DNA of 44,473 nt from Fibrobacterota bacterium (GTDB taxonomy: Bacteria > Fibrobacterota > Fibrobacteria > UBA11236): the NCBI GenBank assembly GCA_028287465.1, contig JAQBPO010000026.1, positions 1 through 44,473 of the forward strand, given 5' to 3'. The notes beneath the pieces were generated by a model that was not told where the DNA came from, ran no database searches, and saw only the letters and a program-made list of their open reading frames with translations. The position numbers were made by a program, and so were the translations under genes. Shown here one piece after another: positions 12,337-28,623 of this stretch; the stretch's first letter is position 1, and each line of letters starts with the position of its first letter.

Positions 12337-13139
12337 TGGGCCTGCTTCAGGTAGACGGACGGCTTGACGCATTTGAACCCGGTGACCAGGCCGGTCAGGC
12401 TTTCCGCGTGGCCCACCAGCAGGTAGCCCCCTGGCTTGAGCAGGCGGTGGCAATCGTCGATGAGCTTCTTGCGCACGTCGTTGTCGAAATAGATCATGAC
12501 ATTGCGGACCAGGATGATATCCAAAGGGCCCTTCATGGGAAAGGGCGGGAAGGCCAGGTTCAGGCGGCTGAAGGCGACCATGTCCCGGAGGGAATCGCGG
12601 ACGGCCATGGTCCCGCCGCCGGCGGGGGCGAAATACCGCGAAGCGTACCCGGAGGGGAGCGAAGCCAGCTTCGCGGATGCGTAGACGCCCTCGCGCGCCG
12701 CGGCCAGGATCCGCGTGGACAGGTCGGTGGCGAGGATGCGGGTGTCGGTTGCCGAAGTCAGGCCGCATTCGGAAAGGGTCATGGCCAGGGTATAGGGCTC
12801 TTCGCCGCTCGAAGAGGCCGCGGACCAGAAGCGGAAGCGCTTCTGCCCGGCGCGCACCCATTCCCCGGCCTTTTCCCGGATGAAGTCGAAATGCTCCGGC
12901 TCACGGAAGAAGCTGGTGACATTGGTGGAGATGGCGTCCAGCATGTGGACCATCTCGTCCCCGGCCGAACCGTCCTTCAGGCAGTCCAGGTAGGACTGGA
13001 AATCCTCCATGCCCAGGATCCGCATCCGCTTGCCGATGCGCGAGCTGACGAGGGATTCCTTGCCTTCGCCCAGATTGATGCCGCTCGTCTCATAGACCAG
13101 GGAGCGGAACGATTCGAATTCTCTGCTTTTGAGTTGCAT
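12333..13139 (-). CDS. cheR: Chemoreceptor methyltransferase CheR
   Basis: A 268-residue CheR with an N-terminal helical domain (EFESFRSLVYETSGINL) and a SAM-binding methyltransferase domain (FRFWSAASSSGEEPYTLAM, then ILVRNVMIYFD and the LLKPGGYLLVGHAESL segment). It methylates receptor glutamates. The start MQLKSREF fits the usual family start. An in-frame ATG at 13166 adds nine residues but would overlap a candidate sigma-54 promoter (13155-13170). If that promoter is used, the leader before 13139 is only about five bases, which is a weakness of this start. It is the first gene of the operon. Confidence 0.92.
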   Translation of the reverse strand: MQLKSREFESFRSLVYETSGINLGEGKESLVSSRIGKRMRILGMEDFQSYLDCLKDGSAGDEMVHMLDAISTNVTSFFREPEHFDFIREKAGEWVRAGQKRFRFWSAASSSGEEPYTLAMTLSECGLTSATDTRILATDLSTRILAAAREGVYASAKLASLPSGYASRYFAPAGGGTMAVRDSLRDMVAFSRLNLAFPPFPMKGPLDIILVRNVMIYFDNDVRKKLIDDCHRLLKPGGYLLVGHAESLTGLVTGFKCVKPSVYLKQAQ

Positions 13140-13154
13140 GATGGCCTTATAGAA

Positions 13155-13170
13155 GGCAATCGCCATGCCA
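13155..13170 (-). promoter_or_regulatory. Candidate sigma-54 promoter before cheR
   Basis: On the minus strand TGGCAT, five bases, then TTGCC matches the -24/-12 pattern TGGCAC-N5-TTGC with one change. It is followed by TT, as in the two stronger sites at 18873 and 24979. A partial copy of their shared upstream element lies 82 bases upstream. The doubtful point is the very short distance to the cheR start codon. Confidence 0.4.
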
Positions 13171-14215: not shown

Positions 14216-14272
14216 GCCGTGGTAACATCCGCGATCCCGGAAACATCCGTGATCCGGGATGCCTGGAGCTAC

Positions 14273-17209
14273 ATGACCGAAAGGCCGGCATTGCCGCGGT
14301 GGACCTGGATCCTTCCGCTGCTGATCTTCCATATGGGGACCGGCCTCTCCCTGGGGTTCCGCATCTCCCCTGGCATGTCCTTATGGTACCTGCCGGTCCC
14401 GCTGGGGATGATCCTGATCCATTGGTGGGGGCCGCGGGTGCTGGTGGGCCTTTACCTCAACGCCATGTTCTGCGCCGGATACTGGGGGCTCTACAAGTGG
14501 CACCTATGGCCCTTGTATGCGGTTCCGGAAACCCTGAAAGTGGGGCTGTCCTGGTGGATTTTCCAGCGCATGCTCAAGGGAAAGCCTTGGCTGCCGGACC
14601 TGAACCATACCTGGCGATTCCTGTTTTTCGGGATCATCGTGCCCTGCGGCGTGAGTACCTTGGCCGGCCAATCCCTGCTGACCCTGACCGGCGACCTGGC
14701 CCCGGGAAACCTGCTTCGCAATGCGTATACCGAATTCGTGCAGGACATCCTCAGCCCATTCGCCATAACCGTGCCGGTTCTGCTCTTCGCCAGTTCCTGG
14801 ATGGAAAAGCGCGGCCTTTCCCTGACCCGCGGAGCCCATCCCCGACCCCCTCTGGTCTTGTCCTCGCACCGGCCACGTACCTTGGCATTCGAAGCCGCGG
14901 CCGTGTTCATGGTGCTTACGGCGCTCAGCCTGTACGTGCCCATGGGCAAGTTCTGGTTCATCTACGGAGCGGTCCTGATCGGCACGGCCCTGCGCTTCGG
15001 CATCGGCCCAGCCTCCCTGGCGTCCGTGTGGACCATCCTCCTGACCCTGCCCCTTTCCGCCATCCTTACGGGGAGGTTCGCGGCCGAATGGCCCGCCCGA
15101 TCGGAACTCCTGAAGGTGAACATGAACGTGGCGACCCTATGCTTCGCCGCCTTGGTGGTCGGACGGGCCATGAGCGACGTATTCCAGGAGATCGAACGGC
15201 GGGCCAAGGTCGAAGCGGACCTGCGGAAGAGCATTTCCGAATGGGAGCGCATGCGTGAGACGGTCAAGGAGGGAGAGGACAAGTACCGCATCCTGTTCGA
15301 GTCCTCCCAGGACGCCATCGTGCTGGGAGACGACGGGATCCTGTTCGAATGCAACGAGGCCGCATTGGAGATGTTCCGGGCCCGGCGGGAGGAGGTCATC
15401 GGCTCCCATGCTTCGCGCTTCTTCCCGGAAACCCTGGAAGACGGTTCCAATGCCGAAACCGAAATGGCGAAGCGGAGGGTCGCGGCGATAAAAGGCAAAT
15501 CCCAATTCTTCGAATGGCGCATGAAGCGGGGGGACGGGACCCTATTCGATACGGAAACCAATTTCGTGGGAATCACCTTGGGCGGCAAGCGCGTGGTCAT
15601 GGCCGTGATCCGGGACATCACCAAGCGCAAGGCGATGGAGAAGGATCTTTCCAACAACGAAAGCAAGTACCGGACCCTATTCGAATCGGCAACGGACACC
15701 ATTTTCATCGCCGAAAAGGGGCGGATCCTGGATTGCAATCCGGCCAGCCTGGAAATGTTCAGGGGCGGGCGGGACCGCCTCGTTGGCGCGCGCGCCATTT
15801 CCTTTTCGCCGCCGAAACAGGCGGACGGCAGCGATTCCGAGGCCGCCATCGAAAGGCTCCGCGATGCCGCCCTCGGGGGAGAACTCCAGAAATTCGAATG
15901 GACATTCCGCCGCTTCGATGGGACCACCTTTGAAGCCGAGGTGGCCAACATCCCGGTGACGATAGACGACCAACCCCGCGTCGTGGTGACCATCCGGGAC
16001 ATCTCCGCCCGCAAGCAAATCGAACGGGCCCTGATCGAAAGCGAAGAACGGTTCCGCCAGATGGCGGAAAGCATCCAGGAGGTATTCTTCCTCCTGGACC
16101 GCTCCCGGGGGCGCATGCTCTACCTGAGCCCATTGACGAAAACCATCCTGGGCATTCCCGTGGCCGCGGTGGCGGAGAACCCCGAGTCCTTCTTCGACCG
16201 CATGCATCCCGAGGATCGCGAACGCATCGGATTCTTCAAGGACGGGGCCTGGCATACCCGGCCGTTCAACGAGGACTTCCGCTTCATCCGCCCGGACGGG
16301 GCGGAACGCTGGTTGCGCCTCAGGTCATTCCTGATCCGCGACGATGCGGGCGAGGTCTTCCGGGTGGCCGGGGTGATTGGGGACATCACCGAATACAAGC
16401 AGGCCCAGGAGGAATCCCGCCAGCACCAGCAGCGGCTCATCCAGGCGGACAAGATGAACTCCCTGGGCCAGATGGTCTCGGGGGTGGCGCATGAGGTGAA
16501 CAATCCCAACAACCTCATCATGCTGAACGCGGACGTGATGGAGACCTTCTGGAGGCATATGCGGCCGGTGATGCGCGAGCAGGCGGCGGCCAATCCCGAC
16601 TGGAAGCTCGCCGGAATCCCTTACGGCATCGCCGAAGGGAAGTTCGAGACCCTGCTGAACGGCGTTTCCGGCGGGGCCAAGCGCATCAAGCGCATCGTGG
16701 ACAACCTCAAGGACTTCGCCCGCATCGACGGCGGGGACCTTTCCGAATCCGTGTCGATGGAAAAGGTCCTGGAGGCCTCCGTGGCCATCGTGGACAACCT
16801 CATCCGGAAATCCACCGATCGCTTCTCGATCGCGCACGGTACGGACCTTCCCCGCATCCGGGGGAATTTCCAGAAGCTGGAACAGGTGATCATCAACCTC
16901 ATCACCAATGCGTGCCAGGCCTTGGAGAGCCGCTCCAAGGCCGTGCGCATCACCACCTGGCATGAAGCGGAAAACGGCATGGTGGGCATCCGCGTCGAGG
17001 ACGAGGGCAGGGGCATCCCGTCGGAACTCCTGGACAAGGTCGCCGATCCTTTCTTCACCACCAAGCGGGATACCGGCGGCACCGGCCTGGGCCTGTCCGT
17101 CTCATACGGCATCGTCCGGGAGCACCGGGGCCGGATCGAATTCACATCGGACGTACTGCGCGGAACCACGGTGGAAATCCGCATCCCCGTCCCTAAGGAA
17201 ACGGCCTGA
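14273..17209 (+). CDS. MASE1-type membrane histidine kinase with three PAS domains
   Basis: A 978-residue hybrid-free sensor kinase. About 300 N-terminal residues form a multi-helix MASE1-like membrane sensor. A short coiled coil follows, then PAS domains starting near residues 335, 463 and 590. The phospho-acceptor is H740 in GVAHEVNNPNN, and the ATPase domain has N (NLITNACQAL), G1 (DEGRGIP), F (PFFTTK) and G2 (GTGLGLSVSYG) boxes. It should phosphorylate the NtrC-type regulator encoded immediately downstream, whose ribosome site overlaps its stop. The ATG at 14273 follows GGAG; an in-frame GTG at 14219 would add 18 residues. Confidence 0.9.
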   Translation: MTERPALPRWTWILPLLIFHMGTGLSLGFRISPGMSLWYLPVPLGMILIHWWGPRVLVGLYLNAMFCAGYWGLYKWHLWPLYAVPETLKVGLSWWIFQRMLKGKPWLPDLNHTWRFLFFGIIVPCGVSTLAGQSLLTLTGDLAPGNLLRNAYTEFVQDILSPFAITVPVLLFASSWMEKRGLSLTRGAHPRPPLVLSSHRPRTLAFEAAAVFMVLTALSLYVPMGKFWFIYGAVLIGTALRFGIGPASLASVWTILLTLPLSAILTGRFAAEWPARSELLKVNMNVATLCFAALVVGRAMSDVFQEIERRAKVEADLRKSISEWERMRETVKEGEDKYRILFESSQDAIVLGDDGILFECNEAALEMFRARREEVIGSHASRFFPETLEDGSNAETEMAKRRVAAIKGKSQFFEWRMKRGDGTLFDTETNFVGITLGGKRVVMAVIRDITKRKAMEKDLSNNESKYRTLFESATDTIFIAEKGRILDCNPASLEMFRGGRDRLVGARAISFSPPKQADGSDSEAAIERLRDAALGGELQKFEWTFRRFDGTTFEAEVANIPVTIDDQPRVVVTIRDISARKQIERALIESEERFRQMAESIQEVFFLLDRSRGRMLYLSPLTKTILGIPVAAVAENPESFFDRMHPEDRERIGFFKDGAWHTRPFNEDFRFIRPDGAERWLRLRSFLIRDDAGEVFRVAGVIGDITEYKQAQEESRQHQQRLIQADKMNSLGQMVSGVAHEVNNPNNLIMLNADVMETFWRHMRPVMREQAAANPDWKLAGIPYGIAEGKFETLLNGVSGGAKRIKRIVDNLKDFARIDGGDLSESVSMEKVLEASVAIVDNLIRKSTDRFSIAHGTDLPRIRGNFQKLEQVIINLITNACQALESRSKAVRITTWHEAENGMVGIRVEDEGRGIPSELLDKVADPFFTTKRDTGGTGLGLSVSYGIVREHRGRIEFTSDVLRGTTVEIRIPVPKETA

Positions 17210-17219
17210 GGAGAGACTC

Positions 17220-18659
17220 ATGAAGAACGATATCCCGGTACTGATCATCGACGATGAAGCGGAAATGCTCGAATCCGAGGCCCTGGCCCTGCAGATCAAC
17301 GGCCACGCCAACGTCCTGACCTGTTCCGATCCCCGGAAGGCCCTGGAAATCATCCAGGGCCTTCCGGCATGCGTGGCCGTCCTGGACATCACCATGCCCC
17401 ACCTTAACGGCATGGAACTGCTCGCCAAGATCACCGAGCACCATCCCGAGGTCACCTCCATCATGATGACCGGCCTCAACGACGTGGAAACGGCCGTGCG
17501 CTGCCTCAAGCTGGGGGCCTTCGACTACCTGCTCAAGCCGGTGGACCAGAACCGGTTCATCACTACCATCGGCCGCGCCCTGGAGCACAAGCTTTCCCAG
17601 GCCCAATCGGCGCGCCTCGCCCGCGGCGTCCTGGAAGACACCCTTTCCGGACCCCAATGCTTCGCGGCCATCGCGACCCGGGAGCGCCGGCTCATGAACA
17701 TCTTCAAATACATAGAGGCCGTGGCGCCCACCAGCCTGCCCGTGCTCCTCACCGGCGAAACGGGAGTGGGCAAGGAGCTCTTCGCCAACGCCGTCCACGC
17801 CGCCAGCGGCCGCACCGGCGAATTCGTCTGCGTCAACAGCGCCGGCATCGATGATGCCATGTTCAGCGACTCCCTGTTCGGCCACGCCTCCGGGGCCTAT
17901 ACGGGTGCCCAAAAGGACCGCAAAGGCCTCATCGATCGCGCCAAGAACGGCACCCTGTTCCTGGACGAGATCGGCGACATGAAACCCGAATCCCAGGTCA
18001 AGCTCCTGCGCCTGCTCCAGGAAGGGACCTATTACCGCCTGGGCCAGGAGACCGAAGAGCGCACCAACGCCCGCATCGTGGCGGCCACCAACCGATCCCT
18101 GGACGAGCTCCAGGCCGATCCCCGGTTCCGTAAGGACCTTTTCTACCGGCTCAAGGCCCACCACGTCCATATCCCGCCCCTGCGCGAGCGCATGGAAGAC
18201 GTGCCCCTGTTGACGGAGCGGTTCCTCGATCAATGCGCCCGGGAGCAGAACAAGGCCAAGCCCACCGCCCCGCCCGAGCTGGAAATCCTGCTTTCGAATT
18301 ACCCCTTTCCCGGAAACGTCCGCGAACTCAGGGGCATGGTCTACGATGCCGTGAGCCGGCACCAGGGCGGGGTTCTCTCCATCCAATCCTTCAAGGACGC
18401 CATCGGGGGGAAACATGCGGGTAATGCCGGCTCCCCCAGACCGCGGCCGGCCGGGCCCGGCCTGTCCTTCCCCTTTCCCCTCCCCACCGTCAAGGACGCG
18501 GAGATCGCCCTGATCCGGGAAGCCCTGAAAAGGACCGCCGGGAACAAGACCCTGGCTTCGGAGATGATCGGCATGGCCCGGCAGACGTTCCGCACCAAGG
18601 TGAAGGACTTCAACATCCAGGCGCCGGCGGGGCCGGCCGAGGACGAAGCCGCGGACTGA
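17220..18659 (+). CDS. NtrC-type sigma-54 activator
   Basis: A 479-residue response regulator with three domains. The receiver has phospho-acceptor D56 and K106. The AAA+ domain has Walker A GETGVGKE (179-186), the sigma-54 contact loop GAYTGA (225-230, where GAFTGA is usual) and Walker B GTLFLDEIGD (244-253), followed by NVREL. The C-terminal Fis-type helix-turn-helix contains GNKTLASEMIGMARQTFRTK. It would bind an enhancer-like site and activate sigma-54 RNA polymerase on phosphorylation by the kinase upstream. Two strong sigma-54 promoters with identical upstream elements lie downstream, making them likely targets. Confidence 0.93.
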   Translation: MKNDIPVLIIDDEAEMLESEALALQINGHANVLTCSDPRKALEIIQGLPACVAVLDITMPHLNGMELLAKITEHHPEVTSIMMTGLNDVETAVRCLKLGAFDYLLKPVDQNRFITTIGRALEHKLSQAQSARLARGVLEDTLSGPQCFAAIATRERRLMNIFKYIEAVAPTSLPVLLTGETGVGKELFANAVHAASGRTGEFVCVNSAGIDDAMFSDSLFGHASGAYTGAQKDRKGLIDRAKNGTLFLDEIGDMKPESQVKLLRLLQEGTYYRLGQETEERTNARIVAATNRSLDELQADPRFRKDLFYRLKAHHVHIPPLRERMEDVPLLTERFLDQCAREQNKAKPTAPPELEILLSNYPFPGNVRELRGMVYDAVSRHQGGVLSIQSFKDAIGGKHAGNAGSPRPRPAGPGLSFPFPLPTVKDAEIALIREALKRTAGNKTLASEMIGMARQTFRTKVKDFNIQAPAGPAEDEAAD

Positions 18660-18782
18660 TTCCCGTCCCTGTGGGGTCCCGGTCCGCGGAACCCTGCACA
18701 ATTCCGAACCGCGGCTAAAATCGGAGACCCGCCTAACCCCGCCCCCTTCCGCGGTTTGCGCCCGTTCCGGCCCACGGACCAT

Positions 18783-18801
18783 CCGATTTCATCCACCCCT
18801 T
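18783..18801 (+). promoter_or_regulatory. Shared upstream element, copy 1 (candidate activator site)
   Basis: CCGATTTCATCCACCCCTT is identical to 24889-24907 and lies 71 bases before the -24 box in both places, while the sequence between element and promoter is not conserved. This is the position expected for an enhancer-like site of an NtrC-family activator. Confidence 0.65.
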
Positions 18802-18872
18802 CCCCGGCCTTCCAAGGCCGAAATCCCCCTCGTAACGTGCGGAATACCCCATTCCGGTCCCGGGATCCGGGA

Positions 18873-18888
18873 TGGCACGGGACTTGCC
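18873..18888 (+). promoter_or_regulatory. Sigma-54 promoter of the cheA operon
   Basis: TGGCAC-GGGAC-TTGCC matches the -24/-12 consensus TGGCAC-N5-TTGC. The transcript would start near 18899 and give a leader of about 69 bases to the small gene before cheA. The surrounding CTTGCCTTAT is repeated at the second promoter. Confidence 0.8.
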
Positions 18889-18967
18889 TTATGCTTGACC
18901 GGAATCCGGCGGCATCCGGAGCCCGAACGGCGGCCACGGCAGCGTGGACGGAAAAGGAAGGTAAGAA

Positions 18968-19294
18968 ATGGCGACCCTGGAACTGCGGCAGCAAAACCTT
19001 ACGACGGATGAACTGGCGGAATTGGCGCGCTCCCTGGCGGCCCTCGCTTCCGAGGCCATGGATAGACCATCCGCCCTGGAACAGATGGCCCGCGGCTTCC
19101 TGGAGCTCTCCTCCCTGGCCAGCCGGATGGGCCGGAAGCGGGCCTGCATGGCCTCCCGCGCCATGGCCTCCATCCTCGCGGGGCTGGACCGCCGCCCCGC
19201 GGACGACGCCGCCTTCATCCTCGGCCTCGCGATCGATTTCCTCGAAACCATCGGCACCGCCGGAACCCGGCGTCCTTCCCTGGCGGGTGCATGA
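18968..19294 (+). CDS. Small helical protein upstream of cheA
   Basis: A 108-residue, Ala- and Leu-rich protein predicted to be mostly helical, with no signal peptide or membrane segment. It is the first gene after the sigma-54 promoter, has a good ribosome site (AAGGAAGG), and its stop overlaps the cheA start by four bases (ATGA). It is therefore expressed with CheA and could modulate it. No family was recognised; there is no phosphotransfer-type His motif. Confidence 0.7.
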   Translation: MATLELRQQNLTTDELAELARSLAALASEAMDRPSALEQMARGFLELSSLASRMGRKRACMASRAMASILAGLDRRPADDAAFILGLAIDFLETIGTAGTRRPSLAGA

Positions 19295-21192
19295 GCCAGA
19301 CAGGATCCCTCGAAGCCGTCGCGAGCGACCAAGCCTCCTTCCTGCTGCCCGCGGACGCCGATACCGGCATCCTGGCGGATTTCATCGCCGAGGCCAACGA
19401 GCATCTGGAAGCCTCGGACCTGCACCTGCTCACCCTGGAGACGGATGCGGGCAACCGCGACCTCCTGGACGCCGTGTTCCGCGCCTTCCACAGCATCAAG
19501 GGCGTGGCCGGGTTCCTGGGCCTGGACGGGATCAAGGTCCTCTCCCATGAGGCCGAGAACATGCTGGACAAGATCCGCAACGGGGAGATCCCCTTGCAGG
19601 GTCCGGTCATGGACTGCGTATTCGATTCCGTGACCTTCCTGAAGGGCGCGATCGCGGACCTGCGGAAAGGCGTGAACGACGAAGACGATGCCCGGTCCCG
19701 CGAAGCCTCTTCGGCCTTGCGGACGCGCATCCGGGCCCTGCTCTCCGGGCAGGAGCCCGCGAAAACGGGAGCCGGGGAAGGCGAGCCCCTGGCATCCGCC
19801 TCCGCGCCGGCTACCGGCCCCGCCCCTGCGGCCGTCAGGCTCGGGGACATCCTGGTAGCCGCGGGGGATCTGGCGCCTGAATCCCTCGCCGAGGCCCTCA
19901 AGGAGCAGGCCGATCCGGCTCCACGCAAGCTCGGGGACGTGCTGGTGGAAACCGGCCGGGCCGACGCCAAACAGGTGGCCCAGGCCCTGCGCGTGCAGAA
20001 GGGCGCGGCCGCTCCCGGTATCGCCGCCGTCAAGGAAACCGTCAAGGTGGACGCGGAACGGCTGGACCGCCTCCTCGACACCATCGGCGAGCTCGTGATC
20101 GCCGAGTCCATGATCCAGGGCTCCCCAGAACTCAAGGGCCGGGTCTCGCCCAAGCTCGTCCAGCAAATGGGCCAGCTCGACAAGATCACCCGGGAGCTCC
20201 AGGAGATGGGCACCTCCCTGCGCATGGTGCCGGTGCGGCCCACTTTCCAGAAGATGGCGCGCCTGGTGCGCGATCTTTCCAAGAACAGCGGCAAGGCCGT
20301 CAACTTCCTCACCGTGGGCGAAGAGACCGAGCTGGACAAGACCGTGGTCGAGAAGATCGGAGACCCCCTGGTCCATATGATCCGCAACTCCCTCGACCAC
20401 GGAATCGAATCCGATCCGCAGGATCGCATCCGGTCGGGCAAGCCCGCCACCGCCACCGTGAAGCTGAGCGCCTTCCAGAAGGGCGGGAACGTATGCATCG
20501 AGATCTCCGACGACGGCAAGGGGCTCAACCGGGACGCCATCCTGAGCAAGGCCCGGGAACGCGGGCTCATCAAGGAAGACGCCAATCCCACCGACAAGGA
20601 GGTCTGGGGATATATCTTCGAAGCCGGGTTCTCCACCGCCAAGCAGGTCACGGAACTCTCGGGCCGCGGCGTGGGCATGGACGTGGTCAAGCGGAACATC
20701 GAGATCCTCCGCGGGCGCATCGATATCCATTCCGTCCCTGGACAGGGCACGACCTTCAGCATCTGGCTGCCCTTGACCTTGGCCATCATCGACGGCATGG
20801 TGGTGCGTATCTCGGACGAACGTTACGTCTTCCCCACCTTGTCCATCGTGCGCATCGTCTCCTACCTGGAAAAGGACCGCCTGACGGTGAAGGGCAAGGG
20901 AGAGATGCTTTCCGTGCAGGGCGAGCTCGTGCCCTTCTTCCCCCTCAAGGATTATTTCCAACCGGACGGCGGGCGTTCCGCCCAGGCCGCGCGGCTCATC
21001 GTGATAGCGGAAAGCGAAGGCCGCCGCGCCGCCTTTCCCGTGGACGAGCTGCTGGGACAGCAGCAGATCGTGATCAAGAAACTCGAGACCGCCTTCCAGA
21101 ACATCCCGGGCCTTTCCGGCGGCGCCATCCTTTCGGACGGATGCGTCGGCCTGATCCTGGACATGGACGGCCTCATGAAACTCGGATTTTGA
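19291..21192 (+). CDS. cheA: Chemotaxis kinase CheA with tandem RLG motifs
   Basis: A 633-residue CheA. The phosphotransfer domain has H67 (AFHSIKG). After a proline/alanine linker, two 24-residue repeats (residues 183-206 and 213-236) match the RLGxxLVxxG...LxxALxxQ pattern of GspE-N/MshEN modules, some of which bind cyclic-di-GMP. The dimerisation, ATPase (MIRNSLDHGIE, DDGKGLN, GRGVGMDVV) and CheW-like domains follow. No clear CheY-binding P2 domain is seen between H67 and the dimerisation domain; the repeats occupy that space. It is coupled to the small gene upstream and followed by cheW after 35 bases. Confidence 0.94.
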   Translation: MSQTGSLEAVASDQASFLLPADADTGILADFIAEANEHLEASDLHLLTLETDAGNRDLLDAVFRAFHSIKGVAGFLGLDGIKVLSHEAENMLDKIRNGEIPLQGPVMDCVFDSVTFLKGAIADLRKGVNDEDDARSREASSALRTRIRALLSGQEPAKTGAGEGEPLASASAPATGPAPAAVRLGDILVAAGDLAPESLAEALKEQADPAPRKLGDVLVETGRADAKQVAQALRVQKGAAAPGIAAVKETVKVDAERLDRLLDTIGELVIAESMIQGSPELKGRVSPKLVQQMGQLDKITRELQEMGTSLRMVPVRPTFQKMARLVRDLSKNSGKAVNFLTVGEETELDKTVVEKIGDPLVHMIRNSLDHGIESDPQDRIRSGKPATATVKLSAFQKGGNVCIEISDDGKGLNRDAILSKARERGLIKEDANPTDKEVWGYIFEAGFSTAKQVTELSGRGVGMDVVKRNIEILRGRIDIHSVPGQGTTFSIWLPLTLAIIDGMVVRISDERYVFPTLSIVRIVSYLEKDRLTVKGKGEMLSVQGELVPFFPLKDYFQPDGGRSAQAARLIVIAESEGRRAAFPVDELLGQQQIVIKKLETAFQNIPGLSGGAILSDGCVGLILDMDGLMKLGF

Positions 21193-21227
21193 ACCCAGAA
21201 ACGGAAACACAGGAAAGGGCGGATACC

Positions 21228-21716
21228 ATGTCGGCTGGAAAATACCTCACGTTCAAATTGGGCCCCGAGGATTTCGGGATCGGGATCCTCAAGGTCCAGG
21301 AAATCATCGGGATGCTGGCGGTCACCCGCATGCCCCGCACCCCCGCCTACGTGCGCGGGGTGGTCAACCTGCGGGGGAAGGTCATCCCCGTCCTGGATCT
21401 GCGACTCAAGTTCGGCATGGAGGCACGCCCCGACACGGACCGCACCTGCATCATCGTGGTGCAGCTGCAGTCCGGCGATTCCGTCATCACCATGGGCATC
21501 ATCGTGGACGAGGTATCCGAAGTGCTGGACGTGGCCTCGGCCCAAATCGAGCCGCCCCCGAGCTTCGGATCGGCCGTGGACGTTTCCTTCATCATGGGCA
21601 TGGGCAAGGTCGGGAACAAGGTCGTCCAATTGCTCGACGCCGATCGCATCCTGATGCGCCAGGAATTGGAAGCCATCGGATCCGCGGAATCGGCCGAAGC
21701 CGGAGTCCATCCGTGA
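21228..21716 (+). CDS. cheW: Chemotaxis adaptor CheW
   Basis: A 162-residue CheW that links chemoreceptors to CheA. Typical segments are KYLTFKLGPEDFGIGILKVQEIIG, shown here as residues 5-28 in key form, RTPAYVRGVVNLRGKVIPV and MGIIVDEVSEVL. The start follows a purine-rich stretch (AGGAAAGGGCGGA). Its stop overlaps the GTG start of the beta-barrel gene by four bases (GTGA). Confidence 0.93.
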   Translation: MSAGKYLTFKLGPEDFGIGILKVQEIIGMLAVTRMPRTPAYVRGVVNLRGKVIPVLDLRLKFGMEARPDTDRTCIIVVQLQSGDSVITMGIIVDEVSEVLDVASAQIEPPPSFGSAVDVSFIMGMGKVGNKVVQLLDADRILMRQELEAIGSAESAEAGVHP

Positions 21717-22669
21717 TCCCCGGAGCGCGCCCGGCCGCGTATTCCCTGGCCGCCCTTCTCCTAGGCGCGGCGATTGCCTCCCCAGCCGCCGCAGGCCTGG
21801 ACGAGAAGCTGCAGTTGGGCGGCCTCGTGTCCCTCGATCATACCTCCGGGCTCGATGCCACCCGGAACCCGGACCTGAGCCTGAGCCAGGTCGCCCTGGG
21901 GGCGAACGTGACCCTATCCAAGGAGGTCCTGGCCTCGGTGCTCCTAAAGGCGGAAGGGGATATGGGCGCGATCTTCTTCGACCAGGCCATGGCTTCCCTG
22001 CATCCCGAGGGATCCCCATGGACCTTCCTCTTCGGCCAGCAGACCTTGAACCACGGCTTGCTCTCCACCCGGCTCATCAGCGATCCGGAAATCCTTCCCG
22101 AGGTGGAACTCTCCCTGCCCGGCGCGGCCGCGGCCTACGCCTGGAGCGCCTTCAGCGCGGGAGGGGGCGTCGCGATCCTCGAATCGGACCTGGACGGATC
22201 CGTCTCCAAGGATTATTCCCTGGTGCCCAACCTGGATTATACGGCCGGCGACCTGATGGTGCGGGTCTCCGGCGTGTTCTCGCGCTACCGCACCGACGCC
22301 GACCTGGCCCTGTCCGCGGCCTTCGGCGGCCTGCTGGTGGACGCCGAATCCTTTTCCGGATTGTCCGTCTGGGACTCCCGCACCCGGTCCTCCGGATACT
22401 ATCTCGGCGCGGAGTACGGCTTGACCTCCTTCGTGTCCCTGGCCTTGCGCCATGACGGCCTCGCCTCGGACCGGTTCTCCCGCTGGGAGGCCTTCCGCTA
22501 CGGAGCCGGTATGACCCTGACCCTCAAGCATGATCTCTTCGCCGCCTGCGAATACGGGTACCTGGACGGCCGGGACGTTCCCGGCGGCCACCGCATCGCT
22601 TTGCAGATCGGATTGAAGTCCACCCTGGAATTGCCGGGGTTCCAACGCAAGACCTTGACGCAGGATTGA
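21713..22669 (+). CDS. Predicted outer-membrane beta-barrel protein
   Basis: A 318-residue exported protein with a signal peptide ending near ASPAAAG. The rest is rich in alternating hydrophobic strands with aromatic residues at strand ends, and resembles porin-like barrels in general pattern ([31 protein letters not shown]). It starts with GTG overlapping the cheW stop, so it is translated with the chemotaxis core. An outer-membrane protein in this position is unusual and suggests a ligand-entry or ligand-binding role for the receptor encoded next. No specific family was recognised. Confidence 0.7.
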
Positions 22670-22724
22670 AAAAGGCCCTCGGACCGCGGCCGTGCCCGGA
22701 ACAACGCTTCACAAAGGAACTGGA

Positions 22725-24353
22725 ATGAACTGGTCGATACGCGCGAAAGTGATGAGCCTGGCCGGAACGGCCCTGGCCATGGTGGTGCTCACGGGATGCG
22801 CCGGGTATTGGCTCCTGAAGGCTCCGGTCCGGATGATCCAGGAACAGGCCATGGCCGCCCAGGCCCAGTTCAACCATATGCAAGGCGATATGATGCACGA
22901 TGCCCTCCGCGGCGACGTGCTGGTCTCCCTGTCCGCCGACAAGGAAAAGGATTGGGCCCAGTGCAAGGCCGACATGTCCGGGCATAGCGTGGAATTCCGG
23001 GAAATGCTGCGCAGGAACTCGGAACTGCCGTTGAACCCGCAAATCAAGGGAGAACTGGTCAAGCTGGCCCCCAAGCTCGAGGCCTACATCAAATCCGCCG
23101 AAACCGCGATGGGCGCGAGCTTCAAGGAGCGGGGGAACAAGGCCGCCATCCTTCCGCCTTTCCTGGCCGCCTTCGACGAGCTGGAAGCGGCGCAAAGCGA
23201 ACTTACGGACCTGTTCAAGGCCCAGGCGGAGGCCTTCGTGGCCTCGAACGGCAGGACCATGGCCCGCGATAGCCTTCTCCTGGCGGGGCTCGCCCTGGCC
23301 GCCTGCCTCATCATTTCGGTCTCGGCGTTCTTCATCAACCGCTCCATCACCTCCAGGCTCCTGCTCGTGGTTTCGGCCATGGATTCCAGCAGCCGACAGG
23401 TTTCCACCGCCTCGAGCCAGGTAAAGGAGGCCAGCACGGAATTGGCCGAAGGCGCGAGCACCCAGGCCTCGTCGCTGGAACAGACCTCCGCGTCCTTGGA
23501 GGAATTGTCCTCCATGACCCGCCAGAACAGCGAGAACGCCCGCCAGGCCAATACCATGGCCGCCGCCGCCCGCACTGCCGCCGAGAACAGCCGCGGGGCC
23601 ATGGACCGGATGGGGGCCGCCATCGGCAGCATCAAGAATTCCTCCGATGAGACCGCCAAGATCATCCGTACCATCGACGAGATCGCCTTCCAGACCAACC
23701 TGTTGGCGCTTAACGCCGCGGTCGAGGCGGCCCGCGCGGGCGATGCGGGCAAAGGCTTCGCGGTGGTGGCCGAAGAAGTGCGCAACCTGGCCCGACGCAG
23801 CGCCGAGGCCGCCAAGAGCACCTCCTCCCTCATAGAGGAATCCAAAAAGAACGCCGACAAGGGCGTCTCGGTGTCCGGCGAAGTGGCCGGCATCCTGGCG
23901 GGCATCGTGGAAAGCGTCCGCAAGCTCGCCCAACTTATCGGGGAGGTCTCTTCAGCCAGCGATGAGCAGGCCAAGGGCATCGGCCAAATCGGATCGGCCG
24001 TGACCGAAATGGACAAGGTCACCCAGTCCAACGCGGCCAGCGCCGAACAATCGGCCTCCGCCAGCGAAGAACTCCATTCCCAGGCCAAGGAGCTCGGGGA
24101 TATGGTGGGCATTCTGGTCGGCATCGTGAAGGGAGGAACCGGCCATGCCGCAACGGACGCGCCCGATGGCTCCCGCCCGCGCGGCGCGTCCCGAAAGCCC
24201 CCTCTCATGGCGGCGGACAAGCCGTCCGCGACGGCGTCCGCGAAGGATTGGAGCGCGCAACCCATGCCCCGCGGCATCAGGAAGGCGCACTCCAATCCGG
24301 AGCGCAAGGAATCCATCCCGCCTCTGGCCAATGACGACGTGAAGGATTTCTGA
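22725..24353 (+). CDS. Methyl-accepting chemotaxis protein (first copy)
   Basis: A 542-residue chemoreceptor. Membrane helices lie at about residues 9-31 and 182-205, enclosing a periplasmic helical sensor domain of about 150 residues. A HAMP domain is not obvious. The cytoplasmic coiled coil contains the kinase-contact hairpin ([20 protein letters not shown]). A long Pro/Ala/Lys-rich tail ends in DDVKDF. The start follows AAAGGAACTGGA. It lies 55 bases after the barrel gene and is probably in the cheA operon. Its signalling half is nearly identical to that of the receptor at 25056, while the sensor halves differ. Confidence 0.93.
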
Positions 24354-24374
24354 AAGTGGATTCCCGGATCCGCC

Positions 24375-24749
24375 TTATTGGATTCCTTCCAAGAGCCATG
24401 AAAGCAGGGAAGACGGATCCGACCCCACATTGACCTGGGCGTAACGGTTCACGGCGGTGTTCTCGAACAGCCGGTTGATGCGCTCCCGGGGAGCCAGGAT
24501 GGCGACCTTCATCTGACCGCCCCATACCTCGGCGAACAGTAGACCGAGTCCGTGCCGCTCCAGGTTCGGCATTTCACCCTCCACCCGGGTAATGTCGAAC
24601 ATGGCCCGGCTTACCCCCCTACGGACGCATTCATCCTTGAGGATCTGGATGAGAGTGCGGAAATCCCCATAGTCATAGCGACCCGCAAAGGTGAAGAGGA
24701 CGTATTCCCCCCGTTCCTCGGGCGTGACGGTCACGAGTTTCATTACCAT
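24375..24749 (-). CDS. STAS/SpoIIAA-like protein
   Basis: A 124-residue soluble protein with the alpha/beta pattern of SpoIIAA-like STAS domains (RYDYGDFRTLIQILKDEC, SRAMFDITRVEG, MKVAILAP, then a C-terminal helix SSLLSWLLEG). STAS proteins are often targets of SpoIIE-type phosphatases, and such a phosphatase appears to be encoded at 26742. It is on the opposite strand between two receptor genes. Two possible ATG starts lie two codons apart and neither has a strong ribosome site. The fold assignment is by pattern only. Confidence 0.6.
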   Translation of the reverse strand: MVMKLVTVTPEERGEYVLFTFAGRYDYGDFRTLIQILKDECVRRGVSRAMFDITRVEGEMPNLERHGLGLLFAEVWGGQMKVAILAPRERINRLFENTAVNRYAQVNVGSDPSSLLSWLLEGIQ

Positions 24750-24888
24750 GGGTTGTTCGATGCCTGGCCCCCTTGAGAATCAAATAAAGGTAACTACCTG
24801 CGCCCAATTTCAACCACCGGCCAAAACCGGTACCCGTCCTAAGCTCCCCTTTCCCACGGAGTTAGGCCTTTCCGGGCCGCCGCGGCAA

Positions 24889-24907
24889 CCGATTTCATCC
24901 ACCCCTT
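24889..24907 (+). promoter_or_regulatory. Shared upstream element, copy 2 (candidate activator site)
   Basis: Same 19 bases as 18783-18801 and the same 71-base distance to the -24 box. The match extends upstream by two of three bases. Confidence 0.65.
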
Positions 24908-24978
24908 TGAACGCGCTCGATCGCGCCGGATGTCCCGAAAGCCGCCAAGGCTGCGCAAGGAAGGCCTCAAGGGCCGGT

Positions 24979-24994
24979 TGGCACAGGACTTGCC
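24979..24994 (+). promoter_or_regulatory. Sigma-54 promoter of the second receptor operon
   Basis: TGGCAC-AGGAC-TTGCC, followed by TTAT as at the first site. Transcription would start near 25005, which removes the ribosome site of the ATG at 25011 and supports translation from 25056. Confidence 0.8.
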
Positions 24995-25055
24995 TTATAG
25001 GGAGGTACCAATGCTATGGGCCTTAGGAATTTTCACCATCGTCAGGAGCTGGAAG

Positions 25056-26726
25056 ATGTTCGCAAAAATGGGTTTAGCCGGAAAGCTGTACTTCGGATTC
25101 GGAGCCGTGCTCCTGGTGCAATTGTGCCTGGGAGGTTTCCTCTATCGGAAACTGCAGTCCGTGGACGGATTCGAGAAAATCATCACGGGGGATTGCCTTC
25201 CCGGAGTCGCATCCATCGGCAAGCTCGAATCCATGGCCAAAAGCAATTTCGAATCCCTGTCGGCGCATCTCCTGGCGCAGGATCCGGCCGCCAAGGACGC
25301 GGTCGAGGCGGAAATGGCCAAGCGATCGGCCGAAATCGACGGCATCCTGAAGGCCTATGAAGCCACCATCACCGTGACCGAGGATCGCGCCATGTTCTCC
25401 GCCATCGCCCCGGTGCGGGAGGCATACCTTAAGTCGTACCATAAGGACTTCCTGCCCCTGAGCCGCGCTCGCAAGGTGCCGGAAGCCGCCCGCGAGCTCA
25501 CGACCGAAATCCGGCCCGCCTTCGACAAGTACATGGAGACGGTCAACAAACTCGTGGTCTGGAACTCGGCCCATGGGGAAGAGGCCGGCGCCGACATCAA
25601 GGGCGCGGTATCCTCCTCGGTGAAGGGATTGCTGTCCGGCCTGGCCATCGCAGCCGCCCTCTCCGCCGCCATCGGCCTGTTCTTGAGCCGGTCCATCGGC
25701 GCGGCCCTCAGGAATGTCATCGCCTCCCTGGAATCCGGCAGCGGCCAGATCTCCTCGGCCTCGGGTCAGGTGAGCCAGTCGAGCCAGAGCCTTGCCGAAG
25801 GCGCCAGCGAACAGGCATCCTCCCTGGAAGAGACCTCGGCCTCCCTGGAAGAGCTGTCCTCCATGACCCGCCAGAACAGCGATAACGCCCGCCAGGCCAC
25901 CACCATGGCGGAAGAGGCCCGCGGCTCGGCGGAGACCGGCCGGGAAGCCATGGGACGCATGGGAGTCGCCATCGGCAAGATCAAGGACTCTTCCGATCAG
26001 ACCGCGCGCATCATCAAGACCATCGACGAGATCGCCTTCCAGACCAACCTGCTGGCCTTGAACGCGGCGGTGGAAGCCGCCCGCGCCGGCGACGCGGGCA
26101 AGGGCTTCGCGGTGGTGGCGGAAGAGGTCCGCAACCTGGCCCGGCGCAGCGCCGAGGCCGCCAAGAGCACTTCCGCCCTCATCGAGGAATCGCAGAAGAA
26201 CGCCGAGCAGGGCGTAACCGCCTCCGCCGAGGTCGCCGCCATCCAGGATCGCATCGTGGAAAGCGTCCGCAAGCTGGCGCAATTGATCGGCGAGGTTTCC
26301 GCGGCAAGCGACGAGCAGAGCAAGGGCATCGGCCAGATCAGCACGGCGGTGGAACAGATGGACAAGGTGACCCAGTCCAACGCCGCCAGCGCCGAGGAAT
26401 CGGCGTCCGCAAGCGAAGAACTCTACGCCCAGGCCAAGGAACTCGGAGACATGGTACTGGCCCTGGTCTCGGTCGTCAATGGCGGAACTTCCGCCGGGCC
26501 CGCGGCCCCGGTTCCGGCGCAACGTGTCGACGCTCCGCGGAAACCAATCCCCACCCCGGCTTCCCGATCCCGCCTCCTCAGGCCCAAGCCCGAAATCTCC
26601 GGCGCCCGCGTCCCCTCGGCGAAGGAAGAACGCAACGGCCATGCCGTAGGGGCCATGGCCGCCTCGGGTTCCCGCCGCGCCGAATCCGTCCTGCCCCTTA
26701 CCGACGACGAGATTAAAGACTTCTGA
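25056..26726 (+). CDS. Methyl-accepting chemotaxis protein (second copy)
   Basis: A 556-residue chemoreceptor that begins [20 protein letters not shown]. Membrane helices are at about residues 10-30 and 190-212, with a helical periplasmic domain between. The signalling coiled coil and hairpin ([20 protein letters not shown]) closely match the first receptor, and the C-terminus again ends in an acidic KDF motif (DDEIKDF). Starts at 24930 and 25011 are in frame, but the sigma-54 promoter and AGGAG before 25056 favour the chosen one. It leads an operon with the receiver-phosphatase and the soluble kinase. Confidence 0.93.
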
Positions 26727-26741
26727 TCCGGAACCACGGCC

Positions 26742-27863
26742 ATGAAAACCATCCATGCCCTTCTCGTCGATGACGACACCCAATCCCTGGAAACGATGGG
26801 ACTCATCCTGGAAATGGACGAGTACCTGGTTTCCCGGGCTTCCAGCGGCCGCATGGCCCTGGAGCGCATGGAAGGCGCGGAACTGGCCCAGCCCACGGTG
26901 GATTTCCTCGTGATGGACCTGGACATGGCGAACCTATCCGGGATCGAACTGCTGACGGAAATGCGCCGGCGCGGGCACAACATCCCGGTGATGGTCGTGA
27001 CCGGCTTCGCCTCCAAGGGCACCGTGGTCGAACTGCTCCGCCAAGGGGTCGTCGACTTCCTGGATAAACCCATCCACCTGGAGGAATTCCGGATCCGCGT
27101 GCGCCGCATGGCGAATGAGGCCCTGAAGCGCAGGCGCAGGATCGCTCCCCCCCGGGATCCCGCCGTGGAGTCGGCGGATGCGCCCTTCCGATCGCTCACG
27201 GTACTCGACCTGGCCAATCTGGGGGTCCCGTACTCCCTACGTCGCCAGCTCGACGCTCCTGAGCGGAACAGCCTCGTGCTCGCCTGCCGTCGCCCTTCCG
27301 GGTTCGATATCCTCTTGGCGGATATACCGGGCCAAGACGCCGAAAGCTTCTATGCCTCGGTACTCATCAAGACCCACTTCGACCGTTGCCGCTCCCAAAA
27401 GATGGAAGGAGGCGAGTTCATGGCCTCCCTGAACCGGGTCATTTTCGACGGGGCGTTCAAGAAGCGCGACCTGGAGGCGATTTTCATCCGCATCCGGTAC
27501 GGCGAGAGGCGCATCGAAATCCACCCTGCGGGTTTGCCATGCCAATGCCTGGTGGGCCTGGGAGGGACCGCCCCGCGGGCCCTCTCCTTCTCCGGTTCCC
27601 CCTTGGGCTCGGTCCAGGAACCCGGCCTCACCGTCTGCGGGTTCCCCTACCTGCATGGGGACAGAATCTTCTTCGTTTCGGATACGCGACCCGCGCATGG
27701 AGAGGCACACAAAGCCTCCGCCGCCATCTTACGGGAATCCCGGATGCCCGGGCCCCAAGACAACCTGGATGCAACCGCGGACGGACTATGGCGCGACATG
27801 CGCTCCGCCTCGATAGAAGGAGAATCCCATGACTTCCTACTGCTCGGATTGGAACTCGACTGA
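26742..27863 (+). CDS. Response regulator with SpoIIE/RsbU-like phosphatase domain
   Basis: A 373-residue protein. The receiver (about residues 1-125) has D11-D12, phospho-acceptor D59 (VMDLDMA), T87 and K109. The C-terminal region (about 150-373) follows the PP2C/SpoIIE order: ILLADIPGQDAESFYAS, FMASLNRVIF, EAIFIRIRYGE, IEIHPAGLPC and the final LLLGLEL. The usual DVSGHG metal motif is changed to ADIPGQD, and the late TDG motif reads SDT, so activity is uncertain. The likely substrate type is a phosphorylated STAS protein. It starts 15 bases after the receptor and overlaps the next gene by 35 bases. Confidence 0.75.
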   Translation: MKTIHALLVDDDTQSLETMGLILEMDEYLVSRASSGRMALERMEGAELAQPTVDFLVMDLDMANLSGIELLTEMRRRGHNIPVMVVTGFASKGTVVELLRQGVVDFLDKPIHLEEFRIRVRRMANEALKRRRRIAPPRDPAVESADAPFRSLTVLDLANLGVPYSLRRQLDAPERNSLVLACRRPSGFDILLADIPGQDAESFYASVLIKTHFDRCRSQKMEGGEFMASLNRVIFDGAFKKRDLEAIFIRIRYGERRIEIHPAGLPCQCLVGLGGTAPRALSFSGSPLGSVQEPGLTVCGFPYLHGDRIFFVSDTRPAHGEAHKASAAILRESRMPGPQDNLDATADGLWRDMRSASIEGESHDFLLLGLELD

Positions 27864-28623
27864 GACCGCCATGATGGACGCCCGCACCCCCAGGGAAGGA
27901 TTCCCCGCCGATTACCTGTGGAAGCTGGAGACCCTGGGCAAGGTCACGGAGGGGGTGGTCCATGACTTCAACAATATCCTGGCGACCATCTCCGGATTCG
28001 CGGAACTCATCCTCACCACCGACGGGATGGCCGAGCGGGAGATGGACCGGATCACCGGGTTCGCCCGGATGATCCAACAGGCCGCCATGACCGGCCAATC
28101 CACGGTGCGCGGACTGAGCGATTTCTCACGCAAATCAAGGATCGCAAAGGAGGGACTCGATCCCCATGAGGTGCTGCGCCAATCCATGGCCATGGCCCGG
28201 GGCGCCCTCGGCGGCCGGATCAGCCTCGGCGCCGATTTCCAGGACGTTCCGGTTCAAGTGCATGGTAGCCGCAGCCACTTGCACAACGTATTCATCAACC
28301 TGTTCCTGAACGCCAGGGACGCCATGCCCCGAGGCGGCGATATCACCGTCAAGACCCGGGTCGGGGAGGATCCGGAAGGGCGCCTCGGATACCTGATCAT
28401 CTCAGTGCGGGACAACGGAACGGGAATACCGGAAGAGGTGAAGACCCGCGTTTTCGAACCCTTCTTCTCGACCAAGGGCGGGAAAGGATCCGGTCTGGGC
28501 CTCGCGAACGTGGACGCCACGGTAAAGGATCACGGGGGCTGGATCACGGTGGAATCGGAACCGGGCCGAGGCACGGAATTCCGCATCCACCTGCCTTTGC
28601 TGCCCGGAAATTCCGACCGCTGA
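27829..28623 (+). CDS. Soluble histidine kinase
   Basis: A 264-residue kinase core without a membrane or PAS domain. H45 lies in VVHDFNNILATISGF, and the ATPase domain has FINLFLNARDAM, DNGTGIPEE, PFFSTK and GSGLGLANV. AAGGAG six bases before the ATG supports the start at 27829, inside the end of the preceding gene. It probably receives its signal by interaction and could phosphorylate the receiver-phosphatase encoded just before it. The pairing is inferred from the overlap. Confidence 0.87.
   Translation: MTSYCSDWNSTETAMMDARTPREGFPADYLWKLETLGKVTEGVVHDFNNILATISGFAELILTTDGMAEREMDRITGFARMIQQAAMTGQSTVRGLSDFSRKSRIAKEGLDPHEVLRQSMAMARGALGGRISLGADFQDVPVQVHGSRSHLHNVFINLFLNARDAMPRGGDITVKTRVGEDPEGRLGYLIISVRDNGTGIPEEVKTRVFEPFFSTKGGKGSGLGLANVDATVKDHGGWITVESEPGRGTEFRIHLPLLPGNSDR

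Follow-up and report, generated by a model that had tools for sequence, protein, structure and literature searches.

To leave its closed state, the sigma-54 polymerase needs contact with a bEBP hexamer, which usually binds upstream and reaches it via DNA looping. For NtrC at nifLA, where there are two sites, the effect is face-of-helix dependent according to the account of Minchin 1989 given in PMC7408454. In 61 natural sequences of Vibrio qrr enhancers (PMC4740811), the loop lengths fall into clusters ~11 bp apart from ~80 to ~120 bp. In Myxococcus xanthus the NtrC homolog CrdA is under joint control of CrdS and the Che3 system (PMC3510030).

We studied a locus from a Fibrobacterota genome of 5,818,024 bp (the window is the whole analysed stretch of 44,473 nucleotides) and compared it with genomes of the same class (126 genomes, five congeners). 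As in the NtrC enhancers of glnA and nifLA, multiple putative response-regulator sites lie ~100 bp before a -24/-12 promoter and are here proposed to act by looping, whereas the site sequence, the multi-box organisation in near-fixed register, the chemosensory targets and the phylum are different. With Vibrio qrr and LuxO the locus shares helically clustered spacing at its putative sigma-54 enhancers. There, however, two LuxO sites precede small-RNA genes, compared to up to five boxes and che operons here, and far more sequences stand behind the Vibrio case. Like CrdS-CrdA/Che3, the locus ties a histidine kinase and an NtrC-type regulator to a chemosensory cluster, but the literature describes CrdA as an output that controls development, whereas the regulator studied here would activate the chemosensory genes themselves. 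The kind of system is known from NtrC enhancers and the qrr/LuxO spacing; the multi-box array, the regulon and the phylum appear to be new. We found no experimental sigma-54 work in Fibrobacterota in the literature, and a 2025 cross-phylum sigma-54 survey makes no mention of Fibrobacter or chemotaxis.

An array of ~105 bp before three sigma-54 promoters

The 19-mer CCGATTTCATCCACCCCTT occurs at 18783-18801 and 24889-24907, and in both cases 71 bases (18802-18872 and 24908-24978) separate it from TGGCAC-N5-TTGCC, exactly as the sequence-only reading had described. These are the only exact copies in the genome, and with up to three mismatches the window still holds just these two (mean of dinucleotide shuffles: 0.01). 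Eight further copies with two or three mismatches were found across the genome, none of them with a good -24/-12 promoter within 130 bp; the closest near-match lies within an apparent coding region. Frequent occurrence of the element away from sigma-54 promoters had been named as the observation that would speak against a regulatory role, and the genome-wide search came out in favour of that role. The 71-base spacers are indeed not conserved, with an identity of 0.62 compared to 0.59 in shuffles.

The 19-mer had also been taken for a unit under its own selection. It is real, but it is only the promoter-proximal end (box E and the rest of CCACCCCTT) of an array of ~105 bp whose internal register is almost fixed. 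Box A (GCCTAATTTCGG) is followed 17 bp on by box B (GGCCAAAATCGG) and ~18 bp further by box C (CCTAACC), then by box D (GGTTTGCG) and by box E (CCGAATTcatCC), which runs into CCACCCCTT. The exact identity of the two 19-mers is partly coincidental, as the conserved unit is the array and the two copies differ in relatives. Both sites originally described stand, but there is a third one on the minus strand, before cheR-cheD-cheY-cheX-cheB, which had been overlooked owing to its divergent E box (CCGAAACTGGCCACCCCTT, 13271-13253). All coordinates are given in Table 1.

Table 1. Features of the chemosensory locus, with positions in the window
Feature	Position	Strand	Context and basis
Membrane PAS-type sensor histidine kinase	14219-17209	+	Pfam PAS, HATPase_c, weak HisKA
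NtrC-type response regulator	17220-18659	+	Pfam receiver, sigma-54 AAA+ domain, Fis-type HTH
P1 array	18696-18801	+	alignment of 13 sites; profile 73 bits, E 7e-20; recovered with own genome held out
P1 boxes A, B, C	18696-18707, 18713-18724, 18731-18742	+	
P1 boxes D, E (both inverted)	18750-18761, 18783-18794	+	
P1 CCACCCCTT	18793-18801	+	
P1 sigma-54 -24/-12 promoter TGGCACGGGACTTGCC	18873-18888	+	predicted start ~18899
Small ORF, 108 aa	18968-19294	+	first gene after P1; no known family
cheA	19291-21192	+	after P1; Pfam
cheW	21228-21716	+	after P1; Pfam
Barrel-like protein	21713-22669	+	after P1; no Pfam family
Chemoreceptor	22725-24353	+	after P1; Pfam MCPsignal
P2 array	24802-24907	+	profile 78 bits, E 2e-21; recovered with own genome held out
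P2 boxes A, B, C	24802-24813, 24819-24830, 24837-24848	+	
P2 boxes D, E	24856-24867, 24889-24900	+	
P2 CCACCCCTT	24899-24907	+	
P2 sigma-54 promoter TGGCACAGGACTTGCC	24979-24994	+	predicted start ~25005
4HB chemoreceptor	from 25056 (less likely 25011)	+	after P2; Pfam
Receiver-SpoIIE/PP2C-type phosphatase	26742-27863	+	after P2; Pfam
Second histidine kinase	27829-28623	+	after P2; Pfam
P3 array	13358-13253	-	profile 78 bits, E 3e-21; top match with own genome held out
P3 boxes A, B, C	13358-13347, 13341-13330, 13323-13312	-	
P3 boxes D, E	13304-13293, 13271-13260	-	
P3 CCACCCCTT	13261-13253	-	
P3 sigma-54 promoter TGGCATGGCGATTGCC	13170-13155	-	82-bp spacer; predicted start ~13144
cheR	13139-12333	-	P3 operon; Pfam CheR
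cheD	12336-11860	-	P3 operon; Pfam CheD
cheY-like	11858-11472	-	P3 operon; Pfam Response_reg
cheX	11482-10985	-	P3 operon; Pfam CheX
cheB	~11001-9916	-	P3 operon; Pfam CheB_methylest
Two further cheX	9914-9444; 9388-8912	-	P3 operon; Pfam CheX

The array has sequence features of an upstream activating sequence: its sites are repeated, conserved across species along with the regulator, and present as five boxes in register. Tested against a matrix built from A and B, box E scores as an inverted copy of these two (p < 0.0002) and box D does so marginally (p 0.045). For box C the position is conserved, but the sequence by itself does not reach significance as a copy (p 0.32). The repetition at sequence level is therefore solid for boxes A, B and E only, and CCACCCCTT is strongly conserved and not accounted for by the repeated box. 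As CCACCCCTT lies outside the box common to A and B, it could be occupied by a second protein, a bending factor or a repressor, with the activator restricted to boxes A-D. We consider this arrangement somewhat unlikely: box E overlaps CCACCCCTT and repeats A/B in inverted orientation, and it stays 84-85 bp from A/B in all sites recovered in the held-out test described below, whereas its distance to the promoter varies.

Sequences of the form TGGCAY-N5-TTGC occur at all three places in the window and at equivalent places in the relatives (for P1 in loci L078, L079 and L080). A strict TTGCWT pattern failed on these promoters because they read TTGCC. The genome has one copy of rpoN (PF04552 over cut-off). 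The own genome has a paralogous CheA cluster (contig C74), at which we found no such promoter.

Distribution of the array and the candidate regulator

When 60 relatives were searched for the exact 19-mer followed by the promoter, no match beyond the own genome appeared. The 19-mer was too specific, so the orthologous clusters had to be compared. From the alignment of 13 sites we built a sequence-only profile and searched the 126 genomes of the class. It identified 14 arrays in four genomes, namely three in the own genome, four in G002 (equivalent contig: Fibrobacteres bacterium RYN_348), three in G003 (Fibrobacteria bacterium 336R_metabinner_36) and four in G004, and no array in the remaining 122. 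In the own genome all three arrays (73-78 bits) are in the window, and the next-best match, at 20 bits, is noise. When a matrix from the remaining genomes was searched against the genome left out, the sites were recovered as top matches in 3/3, 3/3, 3/3 and 2/3 of the cases per genome; the site missed, at P2 of G004 (spacer 71), is weakly supported. Matches to CCNCCCYT-N60-90-promoter in G005, G010, G012 and G014, and one in G004 (C42), have no array and were rejected as chance.

In the congeneric genomes G002, G003 and G004 the orthologous cluster likewise holds three sigma-54 promoters, one ahead of cheA, one ahead of the second receptor/phosphatase operon and a divergent one ahead of cheR, with an array at each of them. 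At P2 of G004 the promoter lies directly before the phosphatase gene and the receptor is absent. Without exception, the arrays found are followed by a -24/-12 promoter and by genes that are chemosensory or receptor-like. This includes the fourth G004 site (C36, E 8e-9), which was outside the training set and lies before TGGCAC-N5-TTGCC and a full MCP gene whose sensor part is related to the receptor-like sensor protein encoded at 14069-13353 in the window. A relative of that protein is also encoded behind the fourth G002 site, which was first found by pattern and was part of the training set. The two window E boxes are identical over 19 bp, as would be the case if the pair were a chance match or a recently copied upstream region with no function of its own. 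Such an origin is very improbable, since the window spacers have diverged, the third copy is divergent, and in the relatives the array persists at each of the three promoters with orthologous spacers no more, or hardly more, alike than shuffles.

Between P3 and P1 lies the gene of an NtrC-type protein with a receiver, an AAA+ domain with a loop of the GAFTGA type (GAYTGA) and a Fis-type HTH; Walker motifs and D56 can be read from the sequence. Its orthologs are 84% (G003), 83% (G002) and 74% (G004) identical and syntenic, so that the gene holds this place in 4/4 array-bearing genomes, and these four of 126 genomes are exactly those in which an ortholog of at least 74% was found. The recognition helix is nearly identical among them: the stretch MARQTFRTKVK is the same in the own genome, G002 and G003, has one V-to-L change in G004, and has diverged in G010, whose ortholog is 50% identical. 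The profile search found no array in G010, which does have sigma-54-like sites. In public contigs the activator search returned two near relatives only, followed by NtrC paralogs at no more than 38%.

The protein is thus the natural candidate for the factor that would bind the array. Activator and whole cluster go together, both being missing in G001 and G005, and co-occurrence therefore cannot single it out. The own genome has ~70 matches to NtrC-type proteins, and G002 and G004 carry arrays outside the cluster, so an activator encoded elsewhere might bind the array while the protein encoded at 17220 has different targets. The position of the gene between P3 and P1 with synteny in all four genomes, and a DNA-binding helix conserved with arrays and diverged in their absence, make this improbable. 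The dedicated activator with enhancer sites that the sequence-only reading had suggested gains support from the four-genome comparison, where the same array at the same three promoters is syntenic with the same kinase/NtrC-type pair and the 122 other genomes of the class have no array. In G010, which belongs to the same order, the 50%-identical activator (locus L081, contig C266) lies beside a kinase and a TonB-dependent-receptor-like gene, near divergent sigma-54-like sites and not che genes.

The stop codon of the PAS-type kinase gene is 10 bases before the activator ATG, and the three relatives have 54-71% identical copies beside the activator. The kinase is likely to be the partner of the activator.

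Spacer lengths and the proposed mechanism

From CCACCCCTT to TGGC we measured spacers of 71 bp (n = 7), 82 bp (n = 3) and 103, 114, 116 and 125 bp (n = 1 each). The identical 71-base spacing of the two original sites is thus the commonest value, but other spacers exist and the helical phase sets the spacing. Relative to 71 the offsets are 0, 11, 32, 43, 45 and 54 bp, and all but that of the 116-bp spacer are whole turns at 10.75 bp; the latter is 0.19-0.29 turn out of phase. In a test that covers six distinct spacer values and few independent changes, the phase concentration gave p ~0.0002 (period free) and 0.002 (period 10.5) before the later-found 116-bp site was included, and 0.004 and 0.008 with it. 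With this one exception the spacers differ by whole turns, as for LuxO and qrr. Across the four species the spacing shifts almost only by whole helical turns, and this pattern suggests that a looping activator reaches the polymerase. Together with Vibrio qrr this makes two natural cases of an enhancer-promoter distance that moves by helical turns around an unchanged array.

Taken over the three operons, the array is probably the enhancer of the kinase/activator pair, from which face-of-helix looping to the sigma-54 polymerase would control one chemosensory regulon. The kinase would phosphorylate the response regulator, which would then bind the array as several dimers and assemble its AAA+ hexamer there. 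As the spacer loops out, the hexamer would contact the sigma-54 polymerase waiting at -24/-12, and we infer that the outcome is activation rather than repression. The spacer could change freely in length, provided that array and promoter still face the same way on the helix relative to each other. A single signal input would turn on cheA-cheW-barrel-MCP, MCP-phosphatase-kinase and cheR-cheD-cheY-cheX-cheB. This amounts to a complete sigma-54 regulon (regulator, site and three operons) predicted from sequence alone, with a whole chemosensory pathway placed, as a prediction, under one two-component switch. More tentatively, the array may form a rigid five-site nucleoprotein enhancer (three direct sites, two inverted ones and a separate, conserved CCACCCC end) on which the bEBP assembles in one defined geometry; if so, the enhancer-promoter distance could evolve only in whole helical turns.

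The activator might also bind the array and yet serve chiefly as an output of the chemosensory system, its phosphorylation controlled by CheA in a feedback loop. The joint control of CrdA by CrdS and Che3 in Myxococcus (PMC3510030) and the place of the activator gene inside the che cluster point this way. Such a loop is unlikely, given that the activator gene directly follows that of a PAS histidine kinase and that the cluster has separate receivers in the CheY-like protein and in CheB.

Gene starts and neighbouring reading frames

From gene order we infer that the P3 genes (13139-8912, minus strand) are co-transcribed. Between the predicted P3 start and the cheR ATG there are only ~5 bases, and the cheR mRNA may therefore be nearly leaderless (13139-13156, minus strand). 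The leader in G003 is similar to that in the window, and in G002 a Shine-Dalgarno-like GGAGGAG follows further downstream. For the 4HB receptor the start at 25056 is more likely than the one at 25011, because AGGAG at ~25043 lies downstream of the predicted transcription start.

Box A of P3 overlaps the stop codon of the ORF at 14069-13353 (minus strand), whose product is a receptor-like sensor protein with no signalling domain and no Pfam match. It resembles the N-terminal part of the G004 chemoreceptor on C36 and a short protein in G002 (contig C121). The small ORF after P1 has counterparts of 52-54% identity in G002 and G003; none was found in G004. A further ORF at 24375-24749 (minus strand; 124 aa, no family) is 48-53% identical in three relatives; in every case it lies on the opposite strand, upstream of the P2 array.
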